Assembly: GCA_028286405.1 (NCBI GenBank)
Contig: JAQBRP010000011.1
Location: 1-61,053, forward strand
DNA: 61,053 nt
Direction: 5' to 3'
DNA from: Candidatus Saccharimonadota bacterium
GTDB lineage: Bacteria > Patescibacteriota > Saccharimonadia > Saccharimonadales > UBA4665
A model generated the notes under the pieces. It made no database searches, was not told the DNA's origin, and saw only the letters and a list, made by a program, of their open reading frames with translations. Below are positions 21,415-49,490 of this stretch, piece after piece. Both the position numbers and the translations under genes were made by a program. Each line of letters opens with the position of its first letter. Within the stretch, counting starts at the first letter, position 1.

Positions 21415-21479
21415 CACTCCAAAAATAGGTATACATGGGTTACTAAATTAGTATCAAACGTATACTACTTTCTAGAATG
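21415..21479. repeat. Palindromic repeat copy 2 (degenerate)
   Basis: cactccaaaaataggtatacatgggttact-aaatt-agtatcaaacgtatactactttctagaatg; related to copies at 136 and 45380. Confidence 0.8.
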
Positions 21480-42785: not shown

Positions 42786-45359
42786 TTGCGCCTCTGGATA
42801 GTGCTGGCCGTTTTCCTGCTATCACTTACTCGTAGCCTGTCGGCGAGTGGCACCTCGCTAGCTAATGCTCCCGATATTCCGTGGGCCCAACCGAGGGCCA
42901 TGGCCCTCAATAACACCGGTCCAGTAGCCGTGGCTGAAACAGAACATAGTTATGCCTGCACAGCCATGGCCTTTCGCCTAATTGATGACCTCAGTAAACG
43001 CTTGCGCCAAGGCTGTTTTGTGCAATCGGCTATTGGACTCATTGATCCCGACCAAAGTGTCGCCATATTCACCGGCACCGACGAGGGTGAGCTAATCAAA
43101 TTTGGTGGGCAATCGGCAGCCCTGAGCATTTTGCCCTATTCGGCAAGCGTGGGCCGCTTTGGCGGTTTTCCGGGGATGGGCACATATATGTACCTGTATA
43201 CGTATTTTCCGGGAGCGCTCCAAAGTGAAGGTATTCCGCAGTATGGCCGCTATAAGTCAGTGGTTTCGCAACCAAACTTTGTAGTAACAGACGAGGCTGG
43301 GCAGCCGCTGCCGGTAAACTCACAGGCGTTGGGCTACGCGCCACGAGGGCAGTGGATGGTAACCGAGTCGCCGGGCAATGCACTGGTTCGCATTAATCTG
43401 GCCGATTTCTCAATTTTACCGTTTGGTAAGTCGTTTGATACGCCGGGCATGCCCTTTGCTGGGCATACTGCTAGCCTGGCCGTTACCGGCGATGGTCGTT
43501 ACGCAGCAGTGGCCAGTACGGAGTTTTCGAGCTTTAAGGTGTACGATCTCGCTGCCTGCACAACTCCCAAGGCCTGTCCGGCGCACGACTACTGGCAATA
43601 CGTAAAAACCCAGATTGGGAGCAATCTGAGCCGTATTTCGCAGGTTAGCTTCGTCCGTGATGACCTGATTAGCTTTAACGCCACCAATGGCTCACAGACA
43701 AATAGCTATCTGTTGGCTCCGAGTGGTCAAATCACCTCACTACTACCCTATCTGGGACTGGGCGACTCATACGCCTCCGGGCAGGGAGCCTGGAACTACC
43801 TTGCCGGCACCGATACCGCGGTGAACCACTGCCACCAATCAGCTCATTCGTATCCGCTGCGGCTCGACGGCCGTTCTGTCGCCTGCTCAGGGGCACGCAG
43901 CCGCGACATTATTAATCAATCAGCCAACTACAGCGGCCAGGTCAGTGATCATCGTAGCGCCAAATCTCGCGAGGCCGACGGCAGTGAAACCAGTATTTTG
44001 CACGACTTTACACCGGGATACCTGGCACAACAAGCGTTTGTGACTGCCTACCAGCCAGGGGTGATCACGATACAAATCGGCGGTAACGATGTTGGGTTTA
44101 AAGATATGTTGCTACGCTGCGTCAGCCCCGGCGACTGCTATCAGACATACGAGGATCGTCTGGAAGCCGAGCAGACAATTGCCCACAACTACTCAAAATG
44201 GGTCGACCTATTTAGGCAACTGCAGAAAACAGCGCCGGCTGCTCGCCTATACGCCCTTGGCTACCCGCAGATTGTCACAACGGGTGGCAAATGCGGGCTG
44301 AACGTTCATTTAACGCCTGGCGACATCGACTTTGCCCGCCAGGTAACCGCCTACATTAATGGTGTCATTCAAAAAGCTGCGGCTGCAGCCGGCGTGCAGT
44401 ATGTCGATGTTAGCAGCGCGCTAGCCGGCTATGAACTCTGTAGTAGTGCAGCAGGTAACGTAGCGGTTAACGGTGTAACTGCCGGCAATGATACGCTGGG
44501 CGTACTGGGGCAGGAGAGTTTTCATCCAACCGCCTTCGGGCACGAACTGATCGAGCAGGCAATCAGACGGGCTACTCATAATTTTGCAAACACTCCAAAG
44601 CTAGCTAGCAACCCGGGCCAGGCAGTTCCAGCCCCCAGCGGCAGCGACCCACTACTACAAGCACCGCGGTCGGGTCGGCCAGTCAAAACAATCAGCCCAG
44701 CCAGCGGCATGACGAGCAGCGGGGTAAAGGGCGGCTCGGTAACAATTGATCTTGTCGGGGCCGATTACGGGCTACGCCCCAACACGACATACACCGTACA
44801 GATCGGCCAGACGACGACCAGCCCCGCACAAACTGATAGCCAGGGCGATATACAAACCACCGTGCCAATACCTCCGGCCGTCAATCCGGGCATCCAGCCC
44901 GTGGTGGTTTCAGGCCTCAGCCAAGGAGAAGACCCCGTAACCATTACTGATACGACGTACGTCGGGCATAGCCCCACCGATTACGACGGCGATGATGTCC
45001 CCAACCCGCAAGATTCCTGCCCATTAGTCGTGAACTCCGGCAGTGACGATGATCATGACAACCTCGACGATACCTGCGATTCCGAGTTCACGTTGCCGAC
45101 CAGTAAGCATTCGTCTGCAGCCGATGCCGGTGGGGGTCTCCTTAAGTTAAGCGTTCAGCACATAATGAACGCTGCACATTTTGGGCCAACAAAAAATGAT
45201 AACTCGGCTCCTCAAACTGCGGTGCTGAGCGCGGCCACGGCAACACCGCATTACGGGGGCACACGGGGTCAATACTACACTTGGTTATTGTTGCTACTGG
45301 TACTGGTAATCATGCTCTTGGTTGTATGTTGGATGAGAAGGCGAGGGGACCGAGGCTAG
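42786..45359 (+). CDS. Secreted SGNH/GDSL-type hydrolase with TSP3-like repeat and C-terminal membrane anchor
   Basis: LGLGDSYASGQGAW; IGGNDVGF; SFHPTAFGHELI; DYDGDDVPNPQDSCP; terminal TM + RRRGDRG; TTG start in track. Confidence 0.85.
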   Translation: MRLWIVLAVFLLSLTRSLSASGTSLANAPDIPWAQPRAMALNNTGPVAVAETEHSYACTAMAFRLIDDLSKRLRQGCFVQSAIGLIDPDQSVAIFTGTDEGELIKFGGQSAALSILPYSASVGRFGGFPGMGTYMYLYTYFPGALQSEGIPQYGRYKSVVSQPNFVVTDEAGQPLPVNSQALGYAPRGQWMVTESPGNALVRINLADFSILPFGKSFDTPGMPFAGHTASLAVTGDGRYAAVASTEFSSFKVYDLAACTTPKACPAHDYWQYVKTQIGSNLSRISQVSFVRDDLISFNATNGSQTNSYLLAPSGQITSLLPYLGLGDSYASGQGAWNYLAGTDTAVNHCHQSAHSYPLRLDGRSVACSGARSRDIINQSANYSGQVSDHRSAKSREADGSETSILHDFTPGYLAQQAFVTAYQPGVITIQIGGNDVGFKDMLLRCVSPGDCYQTYEDRLEAEQTIAHNYSKWVDLFRQLQKTAPAARLYALGYPQIVTTGGKCGLNVHLTPGDIDFARQVTAYINGVIQKAAAAAGVQYVDVSSALAGYELCSSAAGNVAVNGVTAGNDTLGVLGQESFHPTAFGHELIEQAIRRATHNFANTPKLASNPGQAVPAPSGSDPLLQAPRSGRPVKTISPASGMTSSGVKGGSVTIDLVGADYGLRPNTTYTVQIGQTTTSPAQTDSQGDIQTTVPIPPAVNPGIQPVVVSGLSQGEDPVTITDTTYVGHSPTDYDGDDVPNPQDSCPLVVNSGSDDDHDNLDDTCDSEFTLPTSKHSSAADAGGGLLKLSVQHIMNAAHFGPTKNDNSAPQTAVLSAATATPHYGGTRGQYYTWLLLLLVLVIMLLVVCWMRRRGDRG

Positions 45360-45379: not shown

Positions 45380-45444
45380 CACTCTAAAAACAGGTATACG
45401 AATGATACTAAATAAGTATCATTCGTATACCTGTTTCTGGAGTG
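45380..45444. repeat. Palindromic repeat copy 3 (28/30-bp stem, 5-nt loop)
   Basis: cactctaaaaacaggtatacgaatgatact-aaata-agtatcattcgtatacctgtttctggagtg. Confidence 0.95.
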
Positions 45445-45580: not shown

Positions 45581-45708
<128 letters not shown>

Positions 45709-45808
45709 GTGTTGAGATATTGTAACAGATAAGCCGGTCGGCGGGAGACACTAGCATCAGATGCCAGAACATGCTAAAATTACCCCTGTTACTTTGGACG
45801 AAGTACAT

Positions 45809-49129: not shown

Positions 49130-49212
49130 AAGCATTATTGTACAGAATCGACCCCTGGTTTGCGAATGCCGCCTAGGCTTGCTATAATCACCCCTGTTAT
49201 CGCATCACTCAC

Positions 49213-49302
49213 GGAAGGGTGTCCGAGTGGTTTAAGGAACTGGTCTTGAAAACCAGCGTGCCAGCAATGGTACCGAGAGTTCGAATCTCTCCCCTTCCGC
49301 CA
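49213..49302 (+). tRNA. tRNA-Ser (anticodon TGA), CCA encoded
   Basis: GGAAGGG/CCCTTCC acceptor; CTGGT CTTGAAA ACCAG; long variable arm. Confidence 0.95.
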
Positions 49303-49357
49303 GATTAGGCTAGATTCAATCTGTTAAATAAGGTAGAATTGGTTGACGCTCAGGCAA

Positions 49358-49450
49358 GGAGAGGTACCCAAGTGGCTTAAGGGGACGGTTTGCTAAATCG
49401 TTAGAGGGGCGCAAGTTCCTGCGAGGGTTCGAATCCCTCCCTCTCCGCCA
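49358..49450 (+). tRNA. tRNA-Ser (anticodon GCT), CCA encoded
   Basis: GGAGAGG/CCTCTCC acceptor; ACGGT TTGCTAA ATCGT; long variable arm. Confidence 0.95.
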
Positions 49451-49490
49451 AATAAATAGAACCAGCAGTAATGTTGGTTCTATTTATTTG
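49449..49490 (+). terminator. Hairpin abutting tRNA-Ser(GCT) 3' end
   Basis: Perfect 16-bp stem CAAATAAATAGAACCA/TGGTTCTATTTATTTG. Confidence 0.85.

Follow-up and report, generated by a model that had tools for sequence, protein, structure and literature searches.

The 65-bp palindrome at 45380-45444 belongs to a family of eight copies dispersed in the genome of a Candidatus Saccharibacteria bacterium, and we read these palindromes, with a probability of roughly one half, as dispersed four-box putative operator arrays for a CopG-type ribbon-helix-helix (RHH) protein, whose arms would be kept alike at the DNA level, partly by template switching. The window (the whole stretch of DNA that was analysed, 61,053 nucleotides) is contig 14 (C14) of a 636-kb assembly, about 75% complete, of a Candidatus Saccharibacteria MAG, hereafter G000. 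It was compared with a single congeneric genome, G001, also a Candidatus Saccharibacteria MAG. De novo scans of G000 covered about 449 kb of stretches and whole-genome searches covered the remainder; apart from RHH_1 and the tRNAs, genes were named by reading the sequence and not from a database result. The features of the window that are needed here are the following:

136-200, no strand: palindrome copy 1 (c1), A/A subtype, with 29/30 pairs, lying upstream of otsA, by sequence a trehalose-6-phosphate synthase-like gene
21415-21479, no strand: palindrome copy 2 (c2), heterotypic, with B/A arms that agree at 20/30 positions, flanked by an argS-like gene and the one next to it (both on the minus strand)
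42786-45359, plus strand: 857-aa ORF (ORF call) that has hydrophobic stretches at its N- and C-termini and stops 20 bp short of copy 3
45380-45444, no strand: palindrome copy 3 (c3), B/B subtype, arms 45380-45409 and 45415-45444, loop 45410-45414
45394-45430, no strand: four GTAT/ATAC boxes of copy 3, starting at 45394, 45405, 45416 and 45427, in exact 11-bp steps
45622-45708, minus strand: tRNA gene on the far side of copy 3 (Rfam tRNA match, 55.4 bits)

Copy 3 is a 65-bp palindrome with the letters CACTCTAAAAACAGGTATACGAATGATACT / AAATA / AGTATCATTCGTATACCTGTTTCTGGAGTG (left arm / loop of 5 nt / right arm). Its stem has 28 Watson-Crick pairs out of 30, the two mismatches falling at arm positions 6 and 8, both in the outer stem, and covariance model R1 scores it at 86.9 bits (E 2.4e-18). 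Its length is far above what chance would give, and in the roughly 449 kb scanned just a few other hairpins come close. Copy 3 is located in a convergent intergenic region because the tRNA gene, on the minus strand, faces the upstream plus-strand gene across it. The preliminary description had reported that the mid-stem of copy 3 differs from that of copy 1 on both arms with pairing kept, and this was confirmed: both arms are altered at six positions (12, 13, 14, 20, 22 and 23), and the left arm alone at positions 6, 8 and 30. The copy 2 that it listed is likewise real, with arms that disagree at 10 of 30 positions.

Other inverted sequences were also seen. The stretches 45616-45711 and 49210-49305 are similar to each other in inverted orientation (80% over 96 nt), the first of them holding the tRNA gene, and a perfect terminator-like hairpin lies near each (45581-45620 and 49449-49490). 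Near the end of another contig of G000 (C2:317-370, locus L036) there is a perfect palindrome with 26-bp arms, TTTTGCAATATACCATATAAGCTATA/TT/..., whose sequence is unrelated to the copy 3 family.

A covariance model built from six copies found eight full-length copies in G000 (E 3e-20 to 4e-12), at C14:134, C14:21413, C14:45378, C1:27431, C7:25136, C9:25212 (C9a), C9:34365 (C9b) and C17:12528. All eight are intergenic: C7, C9b and C17 lie between divergent genes, copy 3 (with the tRNA gene) and C9a in convergent regions, copy 2 and C1 between tandem genes, and copy 1 at a contig edge, and no common function is evident among the genes flanking the eight copies. All copies start with CACTC and end with GAGTG, one base differing in copy 2 and C9a. 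Arm mismatches number 10 in copy 2, 10 in C9a, 7 in C1 and 6 in C7. About six shorter relatives (about 44 bp), carrying two boxes 10-11 bp apart and not four, were found in G001 from both directions (models R1 and R2).

The family was not seen beyond the genus, apart from one CACTC...GAGTG palindrome each in G064 (C87:6633-6684) and G163 (C53:8423-8466), which belong to other Saccharibacteria genera and could be distant relatives or chance. An order-wide family of the form CACTC-N3-AAA...TTT-N3-GAGTG was considered and discarded, with 3 of 393 genomes matching beyond G000 against 2 for a reversed control pattern; the G064 and G163 matches to this pattern are themselves palindromic. A core-pattern scan of genome contigs returned 96 matches spread over many unrelated bacteria, a large share being Clostridia and Bacilli by record titles; among the matches examined, one G001 record alone has the CACTC end, and relatives are confined to G001 records. 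A few searches of the open-access literature, incomplete in coverage, found no description of Saccharibacteria elements of such a kind.

Compensatory changes are commonly accepted as proof that an RNA structure has been selected. In our eight copies covariation is real but modest. In fact, 10 of the 30 stem pairs have changed on both sides, the covariation score was reached by none of 500 shuffles, and sliding the partner by 1-3 columns destroyed it. Since related copies can exceed such shuffles, whole arms were permuted among copies, which gave p = 0.035 for all positions, or 0.010 without an orientation assumption. The signal is carried by the outer 19 positions (p = 0.010 with the orientation assumption, 0.003 without it) and is absent from the inner 11 (p = 0.42 / 0.30 in the same order). 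It is strongest at arm positions 6-8, a non-box triplet (p = 0.007 / 0.002), where five different triplets occur and the two arms match in 6 of 8 copies. When copy 3 is omitted, p rises to 0.17. These p-values by region, together with the copies that have 6-10 mismatches, therefore indicate that pairing is held loosely and mainly in the outer half. The covariation that the preliminary description proposed to look for across all genomic copies is present beyond chance in the eight, but it is modest, limited to the outer half, and sensitive to the removal of copy 3.

Conservation of the primary sequence is no weaker than that of the pairing. Fifteen of the 30 arm positions are invariant or nearly so in the 16 arms (1-5, 10-11, 15-19 and 27-29, reading CACTC, AA, GTATA and TAC), and GTATA and TAC are the same in 16 of 16. 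The earlier claim that selection acts on the hairpin rather than on the primary sequence is contradicted by these positions, and also by the three copies that tolerate 7-10 mismatches and the further one with 6.

The palindrome might act as RNA, that is, as a terminator, a 3'-end stabiliser or a small structured RNA whose stem is preserved by compensatory changes. We regard this as very improbable, even though copies 1 and 3 fold very stably (-56 to -58 kcal/mol with flanks) and copy 3 and C9a are in convergent regions. At least 3 of the 8 copies (C7, C9b and C17) are found between divergent genes, which argues against a terminator, and no U-run follows the stem, so that an intrinsic terminator was rejected. 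At the gathering score, tRNA and tmRNA genes were the sole Rfam matches in the loci searched. Moreover, G-U on one strand would be expected among the mismatches of a stem selected as RNA; the wobble mismatches have no strand preference (majority-class sum 19 against 19.2 expected), and therefore nothing points to RNA. On the Rfam result, the wobble result and the copies in divergent regions, the RNA element was set aside. Selection could act instead on the hairpin in its DNA form, extruded as a cruciform or folded in a single strand, with a nuclease, a relaxase or a replication protein recognising it. This is a somewhat less improbable proposal, in favour of which is the covariation of the non-box triplet 6-8, which would not be needed if the boxes were read as duplex; however, covariation is lacking in the inner half, which must extrude first, and copy 2, C9a, C1 and C7 depart from pairing at 6-10 positions.

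The paired changes of copy 3 suggest another origin. Arms fall into two subtypes, A (GTAGTATA) and B (CAGGTATA in G000, CGGGTAT in G001), and alongside A/A copies G000 has a single B/B copy, which is copy 3, and two that are heterotypic and the most mismatched, copy 2 and C9a. Since A and B are both found as homotypic copies in G001 as well, the difference between copies 1 and 3 at arm positions 12-14 probably predates the split of the two species. Over its outer eight positions (CACTCCAG) the right arm of copy 3 resembles A, and over the inner 22 it is identical to the left arm of the same copy; judging from these letters, a single template-switch event in which the inner left arm was copied onto the right would give exactly this pattern. 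Multi-base compensatory changes in hairpins are known to be made by template switching (PMC8794818), and we infer that copy 3 is best explained by the copying of an arm in one event and not by a series of compensatory changes selected in an RNA. Of the two alternatives offered by the preliminary description, template-driven maintenance fits copy 3 better and repeated selected compensations fit worse; its interpretation is, overall, partly supported.

The favoured operator reading starts from the periodicity of the conserved letters. GTAT at arm positions 15-18 and ATAC at 26-29, with their mirror images, form four boxes in exact 11-bp steps; in copy 1 the 11-bp array scan places them at 150, 161, 172 and 183. 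In 449 kb of G000, the scan for three or more GTAT/ATAC boxes spaced exactly 11 bp apart gave 14 triples, which are the palindromes themselves and, for the remainder, tandem arrays; every other spacing from 7 to 16 bp gave 0-1. The tandem arrays are a second kind of 11-bp-phased array, made of CATACAAAACT-like units with 3-5 boxes (C18:3433, C10:2923, C18:about 12297 and C12:1123; loci L031, L044, L051 and L046). They lie upstream of CAAX protease-like, glutaredoxin-like (divergent from ATP synthase genes) and serS-like genes, and are possibly sites of another regulator.

The copy on contig 7 adjoins a gene for a CopG-type RHH protein of 96 aa (C7:24939-25040; PF01402, above the curated cut-off), the palindrome lying 77 bp upstream of its ATG. 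This is the only RHH_1 gene found in the G000 assembly, which at about 75% completeness may be missing others, and transposase genes as well. The best RHH_1 gene of G001 (C76:10731-10841) also has a palindrome, a shorter one, about 61 bp upstream of its ATG. Two traits of RHH (CopG) operators are present: repeated or inverted boxes with helical spacing in the palindromes, and a site upstream of the RHH gene at both of these loci. The two loci are in unrelated neighbourhoods (ksgA in G000, groEL in G001), and the two proteins are 46% identical, the G001 protein being slightly closer to that of G012 (51%), so that strict orthology is not established. A point against the operator reading is that this linkage was noticed post hoc and involves a single gene in G000 and a single gene in G001.

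A wider sample of RHH genes bears on the same spacing. RHH relatives were collected from 295 Saccharibacteria genomes and the 200 bp upstream of the best 30 were inspected; removal of this genus and of near-duplicates left 25 independent loci. A GTAT/ATAC pair 11 bp apart is present upstream in 16 of the 25, and one 22 bp apart, twice 11, in 10, while any other spacing from 5 to 33 bp is found in at most 4. The 11-bp pair occurs in 1.2% of random windows and in 9 of 340 upstream regions of other genes (2.6%), with no peak at 11. In these other Saccharibacteria the boxes often overlap apparent -35/-10 elements, as expected of autorepression. On the strength of these upstream regions, 11-bp GTAT/ATAC boxes appear to be an autoregulatory operator code of Saccharibacteria CopG-type RHH genes.

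According to the operator reading, each full-length copy would offer RHH dimers four GTAT/ATAC boxes of alternating orientation, framed by CACTC...GAGTG and spaced by 11 bp, close to one turn of the helix; at all copies the dimers would sit next to one another on the same face of the DNA. The contig 7 gene, with a copy upstream, would probably regulate itself, and bound copies elsewhere may tune neighbouring promoters or help to organise the small chromosome. Two causes would keep the arms alike, the symmetry of the site and an occasional copying of one inverted arm onto the other through template switching when the DNA is replicated. Known RHH operators are short and can do without perfect arms of 30 bp, terminal CACTC or matched triplets outside the boxes. 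The operator reading leaves the symmetry of the whole 30-bp arm, with its CACTC ends and non-box triplets, and the spread to eight places unaccounted for. In addition, the palindromes of G000 and G001 are some 60-77 bp upstream of the RHH start and off the core promoter, unlike the boxes of many other RHH genes.

The palindrome might instead be a non-autonomous mobile element (MITE- or REP-like) moved by a transposase acting in trans, the linkage to the RHH gene being coincidental or the gene a passenger. We consider this possible, though doubtful. It agrees with dispersed copies that share conserved CACTC/GAGTG ends and with the orthologous G001 sites examined (argS, ndh/FAD, ksgA and pepN), which have no palindrome; at ksgA, the RHH gene and the palindrome stand between it and its upstream gene in G000, and neither is there in G001. 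On the other side, the arm pattern (up to one mismatch) was found nowhere outside the palindromes of the roughly 75% complete G000 assembly, and the lack of lone arms means that the assembly holds no full-length element with these ends; a full-length transposon with the arms as its ends was discarded for that reason. PF01797 (Y1_Tnp, the RAYT transposase of the GTAG type) had no match in G000 (about 75% complete), G001 or G064 and was found in 5 control genomes. No recognisable target-site duplication was seen by eye at the copy flanks, where old ones could have decayed, and the invariant positions include internal boxes, not the ends alone. PLSDB plasmids gave no match, phages no significant match and viral contigs none by pattern, and a phage or plasmid origin was rejected.

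There is a bolder form of the operator reading, which we hold to be rather unlikely: an RHH protein of the genus and its 11-bp-phased palindromic operator would make up a portable module. The gene would travel with the palindrome to new loci (ksgA in one species, groEL in the other) and seed dispersed multi-box palindromes, and so a chromosome-wide binding network with arms kept symmetrical by template switching, in an ultra-small and probably host-dependent bacterium.

To our knowledge, gene regulation in the Saccharibacteria phylum has been little studied, and the apparent rule of an 11-bp spacing between GTAT/ATAC boxes in front of CopG-type RHH genes offers a concrete and testable operator code across Saccharibacteria. 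More generally, this family illustrates that paired changes among the copies of a single genome can have a better explanation in a symmetrical binding site for a protein together with arm copying.

Several known systems resemble the family in part. REP/REPIN sequences with RAYT transposases (PMC3733652, PMC3116915, PMC2817692) are also short, dispersed extragenic palindromes, imperfect in mid-stem. REPs are defined as 20-40 bp units that occur in many copies, chiefly in tandem or convergent intergenic regions (PMC3733652), whereas here there are 8 copies of 65 bp, at least three of them between divergent genes, with no unpaired GTAG/CGTC tag at the hairpin foot, no common tag in the flanks and no Y1 transposase found; this assignment was rejected. 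MITEs share the inverted-repeat, non-coding structure and the patchy occurrence between relatives, but here a target-site duplication and a parent transposon with the same ends were not found. Quasipalindrome correction by template switching (PMC8794818) likewise yields multi-base paired changes in one event, and the chimeric right arm of copy 3 fits it, with the difference that here the process is deduced from few copies, without strain-level ancestors. From CopG/RHH_1 (PF01402) operators the palindromes differ in being 65-bp and near-perfect, with four boxes, conserved CACTC ends and a putative binding protein. Direct or inverted repeats, bound by tetramers, are the usual targets of RHH proteins (PMC7156744), and the likeness to such operators lies in short, regularly spaced boxes and in a copy upstream of the protein's own gene; it extends to CdbA, an RHH protein that binds more than 500 chromosomal sites (PMC7156744), in the many places of the chromosome where sites are found.
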